Assembly (NCBI GenBank): GCA_020851115.1
Contig: JADZDJ010000034.1
Coordinates: forward strand, 1 to 56,628
Length of the DNA stretch: 56,628 bases
Direction: 5' to 3'
From: Pirellulales bacterium
Lineage (GTDB): Bacteria; Planctomycetota; Planctomycetia; Pirellulales; JADZDJ01
The notes beneath the pieces were generated by a model. That model searched no databases. It had not been told where the DNA came from and worked only from the letters and a program-made list of their open reading frames with translations. Positions 42,745-50,744 of this stretch are shown here, piece by piece. Position 1 is the first letter of the stretch; every line of letters starts with the position of its first letter. The translations under genes and the position numbers were made by a program.

Positions 42745-43626
42745 ATGTATTTCCTCGCCGCCATCTACTCGCTGATGATCGTCCTGGCCGCACTCATCGG
42801 CGGCTGGGTTCCGATGCTTGTGCGCCTGACGCACACGCGGATGCAGCTTTTTCTCAGCTTCGTAGCGGGCGTGATTTTGGGCATCGGCCTGTTGCATTTG
42901 CTGCCGCACGGATATCTACAGCTTGAAAATATCGATCAGACCGCGATGTGGCTGTTGGGCGGCTTTCTGGTGATGTTTTTCCTTGAACGCTTCTTCCATT
43001 TTCATCATCACGATGCGCCGGTCGATGAAACGCCCAAAGACATCGCTAAAGAAGCACACGAGCACTGCGATCACCAGCCTTCGAAGGGGGAGCATCATCA
43101 TCACGCTGACGCGACATCGATGACGCGGTTGTCGTGGAGCGGCGCGCTGATGGGTCTCACGCTGCACAGCTTGATCGACGGACTGGCGTTGGGAGCTGCT
43201 ATTTTCGCGGATAAGAGCGAACATCGTGCAGCGCAATTGGCTGGTTTTGGCACCTTTCTGGCAGTCTGGCTGCACAAGCCGTTCGATTCGTTAACCATCA
43301 GCACGCTGATGGTCGCTGGCGGTTGGTCGCGCGGCTGGCAACATGCGGTAAATGTTGGATATGCCGCGATTGCCCCGTTGGGAACCTTGGCTTTTTTTCT
43401 CGGCTTGGAGCAGGTCGGACGTGGACATTCGATGTTTGTCGGCGCAGCGCTATGCTTTGCATCCGGAGCATTCTTATGCATCTCCACCAGCGACCTGCTC
43501 CCGGAAGTGCAATTTCACAAGCACGATCGGGTAAAGCTGTCGCTGGCGTTATTGCTCGGCGTCGCCCTCGCGGCAGCCATCGTGCTGCTTGAGACGACCG
43601 GGCACCAACATCACCTGCCAAGGTAG
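42745..43626 (+). CDS. ZIP-family metal transporter
   Basis: A 293-residue membrane protein with eight expected helices. After helix 3 there is a His-rich cytoplasmic loop (FHFHHHDAPVDE, then HEHCDHQPSKGEHHHHAD) for metal binding. Helices 4 and 5 carry the metal site (LTLHSLIDGLALGAA and VWLHKPFDSLTIS). It imports zinc or a similar divalent cation. It is translated from a repeat-rich leader without a Shine-Dalgarno site. No Zur or Fur box is recognised. Confidence 0.9.
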   Translation: MYFLAAIYSLMIVLAALIGGWVPMLVRLTHTRMQLFLSFVAGVILGIGLLHLLPHGYLQLENIDQTAMWLLGGFLVMFFLERFFHFHHHDAPVDETPKDIAKEAHEHCDHQPSKGEHHHHADATSMTRLSWSGALMGLTLHSLIDGLALGAAIFADKSEHRAAQLAGFGTFLAVWLHKPFDSLTISTLMVAGGWSRGWQHAVNVGYAAIAPLGTLAFFLGLEQVGRGHSMFVGAALCFASGAFLCISTSDLLPEVQFHKHDRVKLSLALLLGVALAAAIVLLETTGHQHHLPR

Positions 43627-43661
43627 CAGCCGCTGCGACTGCTCGCGGGCACGCATCAAAT

Positions 43662-44207
43662 TCAAATCGGCAATCCGCGCTCCTGCCGAATTCGCCGAAC
43701 TTCGGCGAGGATGCCTTCAATCACGCTATGATGCGCCGCAATGCGCCCAGCCTCCATGAAGAAGGTCAGCGCGATAAATATCAGCCCGATAAAAGCCCCA
43801 AACAGGTGAGGCGTAACCCAATGCTCCGTCCCGGCGCGAAGCGTAGCCGGATCGGCAGCCGCGCCAAGCGCTCCCACGGCAACCGCGGCAAGCATCGAAA
43901 AAACAGCCCACGGAAACGTGCTGCGTTTCAATCGTACACTCTGCTGAAGATGGCGAGGATCGAGCCGATAGGTTTCCGTCACCTCCTTGCACCAGCGGCT
44001 CGTACCGATGAAATATGTCATGGCGATGCTATTGACCAGCACCACGACAATCGCCGCGGCAGTGCCCAACATCCGATGTACGGTGGCCCAGCGGAGCTGC
44101 GTCGTATCGACAGTGCCGTGTAAATCGCCGATATACAGGCCCAAAAGCAGGGCTGCGGACATGAGCAGCAAAGCCACAATCGCGAGCGTCGTAAAAATGC
44201 GAATCAT
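43662..44207 (-). CDS. Four-helix membrane protein, function unknown
   Basis: About 181 residues from the ATG at 44207 (MIRIFTTLAIVALLLMSAAL). Four hydrophobic helices are separated by short loops. The histidines VHRMLG and TPHLFGAF lie at helix starts, as in heme-binding or cytochrome-like membrane proteins, but there is no decisive motif. A longer form (start 44282) seems less likely. The gene converges on the ZIP gene and is divergent from pdxA. I do not assign a function. Confidence 0.7.
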   Translation of the reverse strand: MIRIFTTLAIVALLLMSAALLLGLYIGDLHGTVDTTQLRWATVHRMLGTAAAIVVVLVNSIAMTYFIGTSRWCKEVTETYRLDPRHLQQSVRLKRSTFPWAVFSMLAAVAVGALGAAADPATLRAGTEHWVTPHLFGAFIGLIFIALTFFMEAGRIAAHHSVIEGILAEVRRIRQERGLPI

Positions 44208-44362
44208 GTTCCACTTTATACGTTGTACGTCGCAAGATTTGTAGGGCCTCTCCGAGAACTCTTCGCGTTCCGCCATGAACAAGGAAGCTGCAATCGAAAA
44301 ACTGGAGCGAAACTCTTCCCCGCTCCATCCTCACAGCCCGGTGCCAGGGATATACTACGGGC

Positions 44363-45463
44363 ATGGAGCCTCGCAAACCACTATTGGCCATCACTCAGGG
44401 CGACCCGGCTGGCGTCGGGCCAGAGACTGTCGTCGGCGCCTGGAGGCAACCGGAGATGCACGATCTTTGTCGCGTCGTCGCCATCGGTCATCCGATAGTC
44501 TTTCAACGGGCTGTCGAACTCGTCCATGCGGGTGCAACGATTGTCACGGTCGAATCGCCGGACGAAATCGATTCCTCGCCCAGCGTCATTCCATGCTTGT
44601 CCAGCGGCAGCGATGATGCCGCCGATGTACTGCCAGCGACGATCGACCCTCGCGGCGGGCAAGCGGCCTACGATGCGCTCGTTGTCGCGGCGCATTTGGC
44701 ACTCGACGGCAAAGTCAGTGGCCTCGTCACCGCGCCGCTACACAAAGCCGCGCTCTGGCGCGCTGGGCATCATTTTCCTGGGCATACGGAGTTACTTGCC
44801 CAGCTTTGCGGCGTGGACGATTTCGCCATGATGCTGTATCTGGGGCCCACGGCGATGTCGATCGACGGCAGCCGGTGTGTTCGCGGATCCGCTGGCTTGG
44901 GCGTTGTACATGTTACGCTGCACATGGGATTGGCGGAAGTTTTTCGGCACCTGACCACCGAATCGATTCTGGCCAAAATCCATTTAGCCGATCAGGTGAT
45001 GGGGAAAATCAAAGGTGAAAAACCGCGCATCGGTGTGTGTGCATTGAATCCACATGCCGGCGAAGAAGGCTTGTTCGGCAATGAAGAAATTCGCACTATC
45101 GCGCCAGCCGTCGAGGCGGCGCAGCATGCAGGGTTGCTCGCCGTCGGGCCATTTCCCACCGATACACTCATGGTCCGCGCTCGCAACGGCGAATTCGACG
45201 CCGTCGTCGCCATGTATCACGACCAAGGTCACATCGCGCTCAAGCTACTCGGCATGCATCAAGCCGTCAACGTCACCTGCGGCCTGCCGATCGTCCGCAC
45301 CAGCGTGGCGCACGGCACGGCATTTGACTTAGCGTGGCAAGGCCGCGCAGAGACGTCAGGAATGATTGAAGCCGTACGAATGGCGGCGAAGCTCTCGAAA
45401 AGCATTTCCGGCATCAGCGACAAACAAGAAAAAATGCTGCTGCGCGACCGCCTCGGATGCTGA
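44363..45463 (+). CDS. pdxA: 4-hydroxythreonine-4-phosphate dehydrogenase
   Basis: A 366-residue NAD-dependent enzyme of pyridoxal phosphate synthesis. It starts KPLLAITQGDPAGVGPE. The metal-binding histidines are in HHFPGHTELLA, in VHVTLHMGL and in YHDQGHIALKLLG. The C-terminal block LPIVRTSVAHGTAFDLA is also conserved. It is longer than the E. coli enzyme (about 330) by internal loops. No pdxJ is adjacent. Confidence 0.94.
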   Translation: MEPRKPLLAITQGDPAGVGPETVVGAWRQPEMHDLCRVVAIGHPIVFQRAVELVHAGATIVTVESPDEIDSSPSVIPCLSSGSDDAADVLPATIDPRGGQAAYDALVVAAHLALDGKVSGLVTAPLHKAALWRAGHHFPGHTELLAQLCGVDDFAMMLYLGPTAMSIDGSRCVRGSAGLGVVHVTLHMGLAEVFRHLTTESILAKIHLADQVMGKIKGEKPRIGVCALNPHAGEEGLFGNEEIRTIAPAVEAAQHAGLLAVGPFPTDTLMVRARNGEFDAVVAMYHDQGHIALKLLGMHQAVNVTCGLPIVRTSVAHGTAFDLAWQGRAETSGMIEAVRMAAKLSKSISGISDKQEKMLLRDRLGC

Positions 45464-45487: not shown

Positions 45488-46582
45488 TCATTGCTTCACC
45501 CCCAGCGATTTCAGAAACGCTTCCGTAGTCTCCGCGAAACCTGCGGCCGGCTCGTATTCGAACTGCCGTTCGTCGATCGGCGGATTGAATTGCACTTCAT
45601 ACAGTTCGACCAGCACTATCGACTGCAGTTCATTGCCCCTCCCCTGCCCTCCCCTGCCCTGCCCTCCCCCTCGGCGGCGATAGTTGATGCGATAGGGAAA
45701 CAAATCGTCTTGCCCCAAGTAAACCAAGACCTCCTCCGGCAACTGTTCCGGTAAAAGCCTCAAGTCGAGCGACTTGCCTTTGGCCGCTTGATTGGCTAGT
45801 TCCTTCGCAATCGGCCTGAGCACTTCGACCTGCCATGTGCCGGTGGCAATCCATACAGGCAATTGGTCGAGCCGTCCTTCTTCTACCTGCATAAAGCGAA
45901 ACGACTTTCGCAAGTCCTCGGCTACCTGTGGCAATCCCCCACTCGCGAGGCCCGCTTGGAAGCCGAGCGGCTGACCGACAGTTTTGCCCGCTTGGTCCAT
46001 CGCTTGACGCACGCGGCGTAAATCGACTCGATTGAGCGTCGGTTCATCGGGCGCAAACTGGGTAAGTTGCCAAAGATAGCGGCCGTCGCAAACTTGTTGC
46101 CACAGATGAATTTGCTCGCCGATACTGGTTTTCAGCTCCCAGCGAATTTTCCTAGCATCGCCCACGCCGTGCTGCAAGTACGTCCCCTGCCCTATCGATT
46201 GATAGCCGAACGTATCGACATGAAATCGAACGCGCGCTGAAATCGCTAAATGTTTTGCCAGCGCATCGGCGGCTTTTTTGACAAGTAAATCGGCCCCTTG
46301 CGGAGGCGATTGCGATAGCGGAGTTGGCGCACCTAGCGTGGCATGAGCGATCGAAGCTTGATCGTGCTGCGGTGCTTGTGGGCCGGTGAGCTGCCGAAGT
46401 CGAGATGCTTCACCGATCGAGTCATGAACTGCCACTGGCTGGGGAAGAGATGCTTCGATTGAAATCCGGCCTTGCCGCTGGGGTGCCCCCCTGCCCTGCT
46501 CGGCCGGCGAACCAGCGGTTTGTCCTGGCAAAGTTCCGGCCAATAAAATGCCGACTGTAAAGATAGGTAGGATGACCTTCAT
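45488..46582 (-). CDS. Exported LolA-like protein with a repeat-encoded Gly/Gln/Arg insert
   Basis: About 364 residues from the ATG at 46582 (MKVILPIFTVGILLAGTLPG), a signal peptide. After a disordered linker (30-110), the rest (about 120-364) resembles LolA/lipoprotein-carrier-like proteins: RVRFHVDTFGYQSIGQGTY, KIRWELKTSI, DGRYLWQL. Two G-rich repeat copies lie in the gene. One in the linker encodes EQGRGAP; the other near residue 305 encodes GGGQGRGGQGRGNE between two beta strands. The role is inferred to be binding of lipid or lipoprotein in the periplasm, and is not proven. Confidence 0.72.
   Translation of the reverse strand: MKVILPIFTVGILLAGTLPGQTAGSPAEQGRGAPQRQGRISIEASLPQPVAVHDSIGEASRLRQLTGPQAPQHDQASIAHATLGAPTPLSQSPPQGADLLVKKAADALAKHLAISARVRFHVDTFGYQSIGQGTYLQHGVGDARKIRWELKTSIGEQIHLWQQVCDGRYLWQLTQFAPDEPTLNRVDLRRVRQAMDQAGKTVGQPLGFQAGLASGGLPQVAEDLRKSFRFMQVEEGRLDQLPVWIATGTWQVEVLRPIAKELANQAAKGKSLDLRLLPEQLPEEVLVYLGQDDLFPYRINYRRRGGGQGRGGQGRGNELQSIVLVELYEVQFNPPIDERQFEYEPAAGFAETTEAFLKSLGVKQ
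45636..45671. repeat. Longest copy of the G-rich dispersed repeat, inside the LolA-like gene
   Basis: On the coding (minus) strand this is a run of GGGCAGGGCAGGGGA and GGGCAGGGGA units, seven or more G-runs, read in frame as GGGQGRGGQGRG. Confidence 0.8.
46486..46499. repeat. G-rich dispersed repeat, inside the LolA-like gene
   Basis: GCAGGGCAGGGGGG on the coding strand, read as QGRGA. Confidence 0.7.
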
Positions 46583-46740
46583 GTGAGGGTTTTGACGGAT
46601 TTGCCAAAGATTCTCTTTACACCGGGCCGACGATACCCACAGACGGCCAGACTGCGTCAGGATTCTAGGCGTTTGACCTGGCAATCCCAAGATCAAGTTC
46701 GGCGGAATAGCCGTACGCGTCCGGTGCGATTGGCATTGTT

Positions 46741-46821
46741 GTCAGTGGTCAAACGTCAGTCATCAGTTGCATCTAAACGCTCATCACCGACGACTGGCCA
46801 CTGACCACCAGACGACTGGCC
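46741..46821. repeat. Inverted GTCAGTGGTC-type arms
   Basis: GTCAGTGGTCAAACGTCAGT (46741-46760) and GACTGGCCACTGACCACCAG (46792-46811) are approximate inverse copies with the same words as 20907-20960. They lie between divergent genes. Confidence 0.6.
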
Positions 46822-46883
46822 CTTTTTCACTTCAGCAATCAGGCGGCCACATCGCAGACATGTGCCGTCGTAGGGGGGACTCA

Positions 46884-48272
46884 ATGACTCTGCGCTTTAC
46901 ATTTGGAGCGCTATTGGCTGCGCTCGTGGCTACCGGCTGTGCCTTGCCACTAAATTCGCCATTGGAGCACATTTCTCAACTCCGCCCGGTTTTCGAGCCG
47001 CGTACCAACGTGCTGCCGCCGGCGCAAATGTTAATGCATCCTGGCCCCGGCGTGGATGGACCCGGCCCGGGTGTGATGATGGCCGGCGGTCCTGGTCTAG
47101 GGGCCTACGGCGCTGCCGGAATGGCTCCCGGCATGTTTCCGGGCGGCGGTGGACCTGGCGGTGCTGTCGGTGGCAATGGAGCGCCGTGCGGCGACGTCGA
47201 GCAGGCCTGCTGCTGGAGTGGCTGCGGTGGCTGCTGTGCCGGCAATGGTGCGTGGGGCAACGATATGGCTGCTGCGGGCGGAGCTGGATGGGGCATGGGA
47301 ATGGGATCGTACCCCACTTCGCAAATTGGCTTTATCGGTAGCGACGGCATGCAAGTGCGCTGGGATGTCGGTAGCCCTGGGCTATTTGATTCCGAACCGC
47401 TTGTCGAACCTGGCCGATATAACTTTCCTCAAGGAGCGATCTATCGCTTGAAGCTCACCGACATTCCGAGCTACCCAGGCGTGGAGTTATATCCCACGCT
47501 CGAAGTCGCTCCAACCGTGCCGCGCACCGAAGCATTCATCGCCCACAATTTCATCCCCTTCCAGCTCACGGACGACGATTTCAAACAAGTCCTGTCAGGC
47601 AACTTCGTGACAAAAGTGATTTATCTTCCCGATCCAGAATATCAAGAACTCGCGCTTGCCGGCGTGGAAACACTTGTCAGCACGCGACTCGATCCGGGAG
47701 TCGATCCGATTGTCGAAGCCGACCGTCGCGGTTCGATCTTGGCGATCATCCGCCTAGGCAATAAAGACTTACAAAATGCTGCTGCCGGCGGATTTGCCGC
47801 CAACAGAGGCGGCGACGTTGAACAAGCCGGCTACTGGGGGCCCTGCCCTTGTCCCAAGCCGTCGATTGCGGCGCAAGTCGGCCAGCCCACGGCGGTGCCA
47901 CCGCAATTCGTCGCCGGAGTTACTGCGCCGGAGTGGGGCATGCCCTATTGCGGCACGCCGATCGGTTTGCCAGGCCCGCCGCACATTCCGCTGGGTGTGC
48001 CAGCCGGATTGCAGCAACACGTGATGAAGAATCACACGGCAATGCACATCCCCGGACCGACCAAAAAGGTCAAGATTGATGTGAAGCAAGAGCCTGGATT
48101 AAGTTATCCGCATCCTGCAAGCCACGTTCACATCGTGGAGCGCAGTACGGTCCCGCCGGTCGAATTCCGTCAGCCCTGGCACATGTCGCACCAAGTTGTT
48201 CCAGGTGTCCAGTGCGGCGACGGCGAGTGCAGCGATGGCCAGTGCAGCGATGGCCAGTGCTCACCGCAGTAG
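46884..48272 (+). CDS. Envelope lipoprotein, Gly/Pro- and Cys-rich (paralogue of the 48541 gene)
   Basis: About 462 residues from the ATG at 46884, which follows GGGGGG five bases upstream. The signal peptide ends in ALVATGC, a probable lipobox. A Gly/Pro-rich stretch follows (50-150) with a cysteine cluster (CCWSGCGGCC). A conserved domain covers about 170-300: GAIYRLKLTDIPSYPGVELYP and a VEADRRGSILAIIRLG block. The C-terminus has tandem SDGQC repeats. The next gene encodes the same central domain, so the two are paralogues. I know such proteins from planctomycetes only as envelope proteins of unknown function. A terminator follows, so it is its own transcription unit. Confidence 0.7.
   Translation: MTLRFTFGALLAALVATGCALPLNSPLEHISQLRPVFEPRTNVLPPAQMLMHPGPGVDGPGPGVMMAGGPGLGAYGAAGMAPGMFPGGGGPGGAVGGNGAPCGDVEQACCWSGCGGCCAGNGAWGNDMAAAGGAGWGMGMGSYPTSQIGFIGSDGMQVRWDVGSPGLFDSEPLVEPGRYNFPQGAIYRLKLTDIPSYPGVELYPTLEVAPTVPRTEAFIAHNFIPFQLTDDDFKQVLSGNFVTKVIYLPDPEYQELALAGVETLVSTRLDPGVDPIVEADRRGSILAIIRLGNKDLQNAAAGGFAANRGGDVEQAGYWGPCPCPKPSIAAQVGQPTAVPPQFVAGVTAPEWGMPYCGTPIGLPGPPHIPLGVPAGLQQHVMKNHTAMHIPGPTKKVKIDVKQEPGLSYPHPASHVHIVERSTVPPVEFRQPWHMSHQVVPGVQCGDGECSDGQCSDGQCSPQ
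48216..48260 (+). repeat. Three tandem 15-bp units encoding G/SDGxC
   Basis: Units at 48216-48230, 48231-48245 and 48246-48260. The last two (AGCGATGGCCAGTGC) are identical, the first differs at four positions. They encode GDGEC-SDGQC-SDGQC at the C-terminus of the lipoprotein. Confidence 0.85.
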
Positions 48273-48297
48273 TCTGATTGTTCAATGCAACCCGCGC

Positions 48298-48340
48298 CGA
48301 GGGAGCAGCCCGTCTTGCGGGACTCCCTCGATAGTTTTTT
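48298..48340 (+). terminator. Rho-independent terminator after the first envelope gene
   Basis: CGAGGGAG/CTCCCTCG (48298-48305 / 48323-48330) with an inner CCCG/CGGG stem, followed by six T (48335-48340). It is one of the strongest terminators in the window and separates the first envelope gene from the next two. Confidence 0.88.
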
Positions 48341-48540
48341 GAGCCGCAGTTGAACTATAGAAGTCACATCCGTTCGACGAAAGCATTGGACTCTGTGTTC
48401 ATTCAAGAAGCAGGATTTCCCTCCGACCGATTGTTCCCAGTCGGATTTCGCTCTTATCGATGACTCATCTTCTTCGCAACATTGCCGCTCGAAGCATCCC
48501 ACTGTGTGCATGTCTCTCGACACTGTACGCAATGGAAAAC

Positions 48541-49419
48541 ATGCGCGTCGCACGGTTGTTGATGATTGTCGCCGCAAGTTTTGTTGCCTTCGCGGCACAA
48601 GCCGAGCCTCCGCGACACGATTTGCACGCCGGAGCGATGCCGCCGGGAGCGATTGGCGGTCGACAATTGTTGCGAGGCGGACCGTTGCCGGGTTACTTTC
48701 AGCCTGTCGAGATTCGCGCTCCACAAGGCGCACAGGTCGCCTACGCGATGCAAGATGGCTTCGGCGAATCAGACAAAGCGCCGGCCAAAGCGGGCATGAT
48801 GATCGGCTCGGTCTATCGCCTCAAGGTGACCGACATTCCGCGGCACGAAGGGGAAGAGCTTTATCCGACGATCGAAGTCATCGATCGGCTCTATCCACCA
48901 CTCGGCCAGGAATTGAAATTCCCGATTCCGATCGAGTTGGCCGAAGCAGACCTTGAAGCCGCGTTTCAAGGAAAATTCATCACACGCATCATTTATCTCG
49001 AAAATCCCCGTGGCGCGTACCCAAAAGCAGAAGATCCCCAGGCGCAGCATTCCTTCGAGGTCGGTTCGCACGAAGATCCTCTCGTGGTGGCAGATCGCCT
49101 CGGTCGACCAATGGCAATTTTGCGGATCGGTGGGCGCGTACCCGATGATCCCGCCAATCCGGGAGCAACATTTTTATATTACTCCCCTCCCCTGCTCCGC
49201 GTGCGCCCGCGGCCGCTGGGTCAGATGATTATTCCAACGACTGCTGCTGGCCTGCAAACCCAACCGACAACTGATTCTTTCACAGCGCTGGCCGGTCGGA
49301 GTGCACCAAAATCCGAAGGGTTCAATGCGTCCAGGCATTCACCCTACTCATCCAATGGCGTTTCCATCCATGGAAATGGCGAAGCAGAAAGCTGGGCGAC
49401 CGTAGGAGACATCCAATGA
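48541..49419 (+). CDS. Exported envelope protein, paralogue of the preceding lipoprotein
   Basis: About 292 residues from the ATG at 48541 (MRVARLLMIVAASFVAFAAQA, a signal peptide). In-frame starts at 48532 and 48460 exist. The central domain shares the blocks GSVYRLKVTDIPRHEGEELYP and VVADRLGRPMAILRIGG with the upstream protein, in the same order, but it lacks the Gly/Pro and Cys-rich parts. A C-rich repeat copy (49184-49195) encodes SPPL in the tail. Its stop overlaps the next start (ATGA), so the two are translationally coupled. Confidence 0.72.
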   Translation: MRVARLLMIVAASFVAFAAQAEPPRHDLHAGAMPPGAIGGRQLLRGGPLPGYFQPVEIRAPQGAQVAYAMQDGFGESDKAPAKAGMMIGSVYRLKVTDIPRHEGEELYPTIEVIDRLYPPLGQELKFPIPIELAEADLEAAFQGKFITRIIYLENPRGAYPKAEDPQAQHSFEVGSHEDPLVVADRLGRPMAILRIGGRVPDDPANPGATFLYYSPPLLRVRPRPLGQMIIPTTAAGLQTQPTTDSFTALAGRSAPKSEGFNASRHSPYSSNGVSIHGNGEAESWATVGDIQ

Positions 49420-50744
49420 CGCTTTCGATTCGTTCAGTATCATTCGCGATACTCTCCGGCCTATTGCTGTTCGCCTGCTCGTGCCGTAGCGCGGATCGCG
49501 CTGGCAAGTTCGACCTGTCAATGGTTTCAGACTCTGGCCCGTCGTCGCTGGCCTTTGCCGGCCTGCCGCGGGAAGCCTACACAGGCCATCCAGGCGACGG
49601 ATACACCATTCCCGGCCTGGTTGCGCCGCACATGGAAGCCGCCATTGCCGGCGTCGCCGAAGTCAGCGACAGTGAAGGTCCGTATCAGCCGCCGCTCCGG
49701 CTCGAGAGCGAATCTTCCGGCCAGATCCAAGCCGTCGAGCCTAACGCCGTACAAACTCTGCCGCCAAAATACAACGGCCCGCCGCCGATGCCGGTCATGT
49801 ATGCCGCCCCGTGGCAGCCACCTGGAATTGGTGGTTCGTGGCCAGAAGACGAATACATCTTCGACGGCGGCGATCACAACGGCGGCGTCCAAGTACGCGA
49901 CGACTGGTCGCTCGTCGGCCTCGATGAAGAAGACACGATCATCCATTACGATACGCTTGACGGCCGCACCGTCGTCAAGCCGTCGAATCGTGTCTGCATC
50001 TATGCCCCACGCTTTGCCGCGGTACGCCAAGTGACGCTTCCCTACGGCGATAATCAATTTGTTCGCGCCGGCGGCGTAGACGCTCCGATCGGCCCTGAGC
50101 GAGAAGATATTCTGCAGCCGGTTAGCACCACGCTGCAGCCCGTGCAGCCGGTGGCTGAAGTTGGCGATCGCTCAACGGTCACCTTCCTTGAAAAGCAGCC
50201 GCCAATCGGCCTCATCGCGAATTTGGTCGTCCGCGCAACCGTCGATCGGCTCAAGCCCTATGAAGATTTCGATCTAATCCGTTTTGGAAAGATCGAAGAA
50301 GGCGAAAAGCCGTTCATTGCACAAGCCGTACAGGCTGCGATAACTTGGACGCTCGACCAAGGCGTGCAAGTCGCGGTCGATGGCAAGAGAGCTAACATCT
50401 TTCAAGGAGACCGCCGCGCACAAGCAACGTACTTTGTCCAGCCTGGCAAGCCGTGCCTACGGATTTGCAAGATCGCCTCGACGCACAGTGCGTTGCCCGG
50501 CGAAATCGTCGAATTTACGATCCGCTTCGACAATGTCGGTGAGCAAACGATTGGCAACGTCACGCTCGTGGACGATCTCACCGCGCGCCTGGAATACCTC
50601 GAAAGCTCCGCGCAGGCGAGCGTCGACGCCGAATTCTTCACCGATCCGAACCCGCAAGGTTCACTGGTGCTCCGCTGGGAAATCAAACAGCCGATGAAAG
50701 CTGGCGAAGGCGGAATTGCCCGATTCAAGTGCCGTGTGCGATAA
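49416..50744 (+). CDS. Envelope lipoprotein with C-terminal DUF11-type domain
   Basis: A 442-residue protein. AGGAG lies seven bases before the ATG. The N-terminus ISGLLLFACSC-like stretch (SGLLLFACSCRSADRAG) is a probable lipoprotein signal. The middle (80-290) has no family I recognise. The last 100 residues (about 340-442) are a DUF11/conserved-repeat beta sandwich: PGEIVEFTIRFDNVGEQTIG, then NVTLVDDLTARLEYLESSA. Such domains occur in surface proteins. Coupling to the previous gene suggests that the two act in one envelope structure. Confidence 0.75.
   Translation: MTLSIRSVSFAILSGLLLFACSCRSADRAGKFDLSMVSDSGPSSLAFAGLPREAYTGHPGDGYTIPGLVAPHMEAAIAGVAEVSDSEGPYQPPLRLESESSGQIQAVEPNAVQTLPPKYNGPPPMPVMYAAPWQPPGIGGSWPEDEYIFDGGDHNGGVQVRDDWSLVGLDEEDTIIHYDTLDGRTVVKPSNRVCIYAPRFAAVRQVTLPYGDNQFVRAGGVDAPIGPEREDILQPVSTTLQPVQPVAEVGDRSTVTFLEKQPPIGLIANLVVRATVDRLKPYEDFDLIRFGKIEEGEKPFIAQAVQAAITWTLDQGVQVAVDGKRANIFQGDRRAQATYFVQPGKPCLRICKIASTHSALPGEIVEFTIRFDNVGEQTIGNVTLVDDLTARLEYLESSAQASVDAEFFTDPNPQGSLVLRWEIKQPMKAGEGGIARFKCRVR

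Follow-up and report, generated by a model that had tools for sequence, protein, structure and literature searches.

Several described outer-membrane and surface systems bear on the locus treated here. The aryl polyene cluster of E. coli lists a LolA-like chaperone together with a LolB-like protein (PMC8253772), T. immobilis has been reported to possess LolCDE, with LolA and LolB absent from the main text of that report (PMC8567305), and lineage-restricted, exported, cysteine-rich YTV proteins have been described from planctomycete walls (PMC8567305). Opinions differ on the envelopes of planctomycetes, and no function is known for many genes specific to these lineages; in Planctopirus limnophila alone, 151 essential genes of unknown function have been reported (PMC10632474). 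Here we describe a cluster of three genes, g1, g2 and g3, in a 56,628-nucleotide stretch of a Pirellulales bacterium (contig C34 of a 5.2 Mb genome; hereafter the window, in whose full length all coordinates are given). This cluster is a core locus of one planctomycete class and is restricted to that class within a draw of 196 genomes from the phylum. We tentatively propose, at somewhat less than even confidence, that it encodes an outer-membrane lipoprotein complex of g1 and g2-g3 with its own LolA-like carrier. No description of the cluster was found in the open-access literature searched.

Distribution and architecture of the locus

Using g2 as the query, 55 of 57 genomes of the same order were matched, 54 of which have at least two matching places, and a g1 profile matched 147 of 148 genomes of the same class (order and class being those of the source genome throughout). 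The sole miss in the class, G162, has a contig that opens with the final part of g3 and therefore looks like an assembly gap. Fifteen genomes of the phylum draw matched, all of them the source genome itself or members of its order or class, and none of the other 181 did, 161 of the non-matching genomes being unlisted with their kinship not given. A pattern-based scan of a genome collection with g2 returned three loci, all titled as planctomycetes. The initial annotation, made from the sequence of the window, had proposed a planctomycete-specific surface structure; the lineage restriction holds within the phylum, the cluster is present in relatives, and the shared domain described below matches no enzyme.

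The three genes are real, and all lie on the plus strand. Gene g1 (46884..48272) encodes a putative lipoprotein of 462 amino acids with the lipobox ATGC (Cys19), composed of a Gly/Pro-rich linker, a domain shared with g2 (47316..47782, plus strand, delimited by alignment and the self-genome match) and a conserved Pro/Gly C-terminal part. Gene g2 (48532..49419, with an in-frame ATG at 48460 as a possible alternative start) encodes an exported protein of 295 amino acids with a Sec-type signal ending in AQA and the core of the shared domain (48778..49149, plus strand). Gene g3 (49416..50744) encodes a putative lipoprotein of 442 amino acids with a lipobox-like signal (LFAC or ACSC), a conserved middle part without a named family and a C-terminal DUF11/TIGR01451 domain (50457..50627, plus strand). 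The DUF11 assignment made in the initial annotation was upheld by matches to PF01345 (E 8.6e-6, 26.5 bits, cut-off 24.6) and TIGR01451 (E 3.3e-9, 36.6 bits, cut-off 24), and PF01345 was matched in all 26 g3 members scanned.

The domain common to g1 and g2, likewise noticed from the sequence alone, is well supported: when the source genome is searched with g2, g1 is matched with 33% identity over residues 83-206 of g2 (E 1.7e-16), and at E≤1 that genome has no third copy. No Pfam or NCBIfam family was found for g1 or g2, with only scattered weak matches in one or two members among relatives, and the best matches to PDB sequences (E 0.17 and 0.0059) indicate no consistent family. An enzyme function was rejected, no enzyme family having been matched in Pfam, NCBIfam or PDB. 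AlphaFold2 modelling of the domain from eight sequences predicts a beta-rich structure (mean predicted local distance difference test, pLDDT, 65; predicted template modelling score, pTM, 0.67). In a phylogenetic reconstruction of 150 domain sequences, 74 from g1 were separated from 76 belonging to g2 or g2-g3 without error and with support of 1.0, a split partly expected for the rows of 20 class loci, whose labels came from profile scores. Because the two groups separate cleanly, the duplication should predate the class, and on this tree g1 and g2 are shown to be ancient paralogues. Two genomes have additional g1-type copies of the domain, L060 (G014:C3) and L061 (G006:C121), each embedded in a long reading frame at some other place than the main locus.

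Gene order is g1-g2-g3 on one strand in all 47 order loci that show the complete trio (these and the junction counts use L030 onward, with the extra or truncated copies L060-L062 dropped, and with L027 left out where L030, judged to be the same contig from its length and coordinates, was used). In the window the end of g2 and the start of g3 share the ATGA at 49416-49419, the initial annotation having called the two genes translationally coupled, and among the g2-g3 junctions of 50 order relatives there are 21 four-base overlaps (20 of them ATGA), three one-base overlaps, one fusion and 25 other arrangements. Locus L068, on the reverse strand, is a natural g2-g3 fusion within the order that keeps a Sec-type signal and has a Pro- and Cys-containing linker between its parts. 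Outside the order, g2 and g3 form a single open frame in 15 of 20 loci and are split in the remaining five, the fused frames running from the g2 domain through the g3 core to DUF11. On account of these fusions, the cluster, annotated as a three-gene unit, is better described as a two-partner system consisting of g1 and g2-g3; the cluster of the original description is conserved, and a divergent gene (45488-46582) was missed by it.

All three proteins carry predicted export signals, in agreement with the first reading of the window. Of 53 g1 proteins 45 have a lipobox-like N-terminus, as do 40 of 52 g3 proteins, compared with a background of 5 of 56 for g2, as called by pattern rather than by a trained predictor and with L060-L062 dropped. 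Clear lipoboxes are also present in g1 of other families (e.g. LSGC in L112 and L118). In most cases g1 and g3 are putatively lipid-anchored.

The window g1 ends in a cysteine-rich tail (48216..48269, plus strand), to which the initial annotation attributed possible disulfide cross-linking. The tail and its SDGQC-type repeats are present as described (the whole protein has 13 cysteines after residue 25 and three [SG][DN]G[QE]C motifs), but they are not conserved, the motif occurring in none of the 53 other g1 proteins and the median over 54 g1 proteins being four cysteines. Since relatives lack both tail and motif, cross-linking was rejected as a shared function, and it may be a local trait of the window g1.

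The divergent LolA-like gene

The gene upstream of g1 (45488..46582, minus strand) is transcribed divergently and encodes a protein of 364 amino acids with a probable Sec signal peptide. No Pfam or NCBIfam family fits this protein. A search of PDB with its profile gave eight matches, three of which are LolA chains (best E 0.019), and hhalign aligned the profile with LolA at 93.4 and 95.9% (E 5e-9, ~200 columns) when a cleaned LolA set was used, for which eight of 20 loci were left out (four without a match, four weak), versus 63.5% with the uncleaned set. Decoys, five per profile and including the reversed LolA profile and unrelated neighbours, reached at most 0.4%, and the profiles of g1, g2 and g3 showed no resemblance to LolA by the same method. 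The product is therefore a distant relative of LolA and a probable carrier of lipid or lipoprotein. We found the gene in 117 of 148 class genomes, every one of which has it divergent from g1 and with the matched parts 529-1324 bases apart; in the window the two are separated by the intergenic region 46583..46883. Of the 20 listed genomes without a match, 18 belong to family f23 and the other two are G019 (f18) and G117 (f26), a further 11 non-matching class genomes being unlisted with their kinship not given. A broader profile detects the gene in G117, so the count of 117 is a lower bound.

The question of which protein serves as the housekeeping LolA bears on this assignment. Pfam LolA scores over its cut-off in only 1 of 25 order, 23 of 148 class and 43 of 147 phylum genomes. 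By comparison, TIGR03009, an unnamed planctomycete domain, occurs in 20 of 20 order genomes, 19 of which have a single copy, aligns with LolA at 98.4% by hhalign, and has matches coinciding with two weak Pfam LolA hits in order genomes G012 and G016; L148 (G000:C257:11278-11910) is one of the TIGR03009 proteins. Because TIGR03009 is both closer to LolA and present in all 20 order genomes, the divergent gene was rejected as the sole LolA. Probably the housekeeping role falls to TIGR03009 and the divergent gene encodes a second LolA-like protein with a specialised task, which makes TIGR03009 a candidate for a LolA overlooked by the standard Pfam model in planctomycetes. A search for the LolC/E family does not discriminate, since all 20 genomes searched have matches at E≤0.001 but none that reaches the cut-off, and 13 of the 14 controls match as well.

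Two further features were noted around the cluster. A hairpin 3' of g1 (48298-48330, -23.5 kcal/mol, z -2.45, with 4 of 200 shuffles equally stable) had been taken for a strong terminator separating g1 from g2; the hairpin is real, but its T run (the whole element spanning 48298..48340, plus strand) begins four bases past the stem and the element, terminator-like in build, was not listed by a consensus scan. A search of Rfam led nowhere. Ahead of the cluster (42745-45463) lie genes for a ZIP-like transporter and a small membrane protein, and pdxA, which recur in many order relatives.

Possible roles in the envelope

Given that no enzyme family was matched, the role of g1-g3 is probably structural or in outer-membrane assembly. 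We propose that g1 and g2-g3 would pair at the outer membrane via their paralogous beta-rich domains, and that the LolA-like protein would act as their own periplasmic carrier, its cargo being either these lipoproteins or a lipid delivered to g1/g2-g3. This proposal draws on the near-universality of the locus in the class and the lack of matches in the other 181 genomes of the phylum draw, the invariant gene order, the g2-g3 fusions, the error-free tree, the lipobox counts, the decoy-controlled relation of the LolA-like protein to LolA, the divergent adjacency of its gene and the presence of TIGR03009 in order genomes, with the aryl polyene cluster (PMC8253772) as a precedent.

Several observations weigh on the other side. 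In two genomes of the order, G013 and G051, both the g2 query and the g1 profile failed to find a match, a g3 search giving a weak DUF11-type match in G013 and none in G051. The fused g2-g3 proteins inspected in other families start with plain Sec-like signals, and lipidation of g3 would therefore be dispensable there. With the threshold applied, 31 of 148 class genomes gave no match for the LolA-like gene, and it is missing next to g1 in G019 and in five f23 loci, so g1-g3 can apparently work without the LolA-like protein. None of the 30 members of its family that were scanned matches Pfam LolA (PF03548) at E≤1. The structural matches of the domain model do not suffice to name a fold (best Foldseek E 0.036; best Z 4.2, root mean square deviation 4.0 over 72 residues), the chains retrieved at Z 3-4 (9k1u, von Hippel-Lindau, pilin) being no better than common arrangements, and modelling of g3 failed (pTM 0.37). 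Finally, the tie of the LolA-like protein to g1-g3 is inferred from gene linkage and sequence.

A broader version of the proposal, which we consider doubtful, is that the whole class has a second outer-membrane route, in which a LolA paralogue specialised for a near-universal acceptor, g1/g2-g3, would help to build the envelope. If true, this would constitute a dedicated second delivery route across one entire planctomycete class.

Alternatively, the LolA-like protein could carry a non-protein lipid through the periplasm, with g1/g2-g3 as the outer-membrane receptor. This would suit a LolA relative in genomes that have a separate LolA candidate (20 of 20 order genomes), and the aryl polyene cluster offers a precedent (PMC8253772), but no lipid-synthesis gene is a conserved neighbour in the loci examined and the profiles of g1, g2 and g3 are unlike LolA; we regard such a role as unlikely. 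We attach a similarly low probability to a surface layer or proteinaceous wall, in which g1 and g2-g3 would form a lattice via their shared and DUF11 domains. Export signals, DUF11 in g3 and class restriction are consistent with a lattice, and planctomycete wall proteomes hold lipoproteins alongside the lineage-restricted cysteine-rich YTV proteins (PMC8567305); the genes, however, are usually present in one copy each and without repeats, the cysteine content of relatives is low with the SDGQC-type motif confined to the window g1, none of the three window proteins has the YTV tripeptide, and the wall lipoprotein described in that source has homologues of 93-158 kDa, unlike g1-g3. The LolA-like neighbour is at least as suggestive of a part in outer-membrane delivery or assembly as of a surface layer. 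That this gene is a frozen, functionally unlinked neighbour, with g1-g3 doing another envelope job such as stress sensing, is the least probable explanation: its absence or non-detection in 31 class genomes, when g1 is found in 147 of an equally sized draw, would fit, but the divergent adjacency is kept in 117 of 117 cases, whereas pdxA, a frequent neighbour of the cluster within the order, was seen in just one of the 20 loci examined beyond it.

A complex of lipoproteins at the outer membrane, served by a LolA-like carrier of its own, remains our favoured proposal. The observations of the initial annotation were confirmed and its interpretation partly supported; the class-wide core status of the locus, its two-partner architecture and its LolA-like partner are added here. 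Being near-universal in the class, restricted to it within the phylum draw and accompanied by a clear partner gene, the locus offers a concrete starting point in the planctomycete envelope.

Comparison with described systems

The g3 protein resembles DUF11/TIGR01451 proteins in its C-terminal domain, but the window g3 has a single such domain, placed after a long conserved part without a family. The planctomycete YTV and cysteine-rich wall proteins (PMC8567305) are, like the proteins of this locus, lineage-restricted and exported, and differ from them in the YTV tripeptide and in a cysteine content that most g1 relatives do not approach. With the aryl polyene cluster as presented in PMC8253772, the locus has in common a cluster-specific LolA-like gene beside envelope proteins; biosynthesis genes are not seen here. 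There is also a likeness to LolA itself: although the divergent gene product falls outside PF03548 and shares these genomes with TIGR03009 as another LolA-like protein, it has a probable export signal and aligns with LolA by hhalign over ~200 columns, covering most of the domain.

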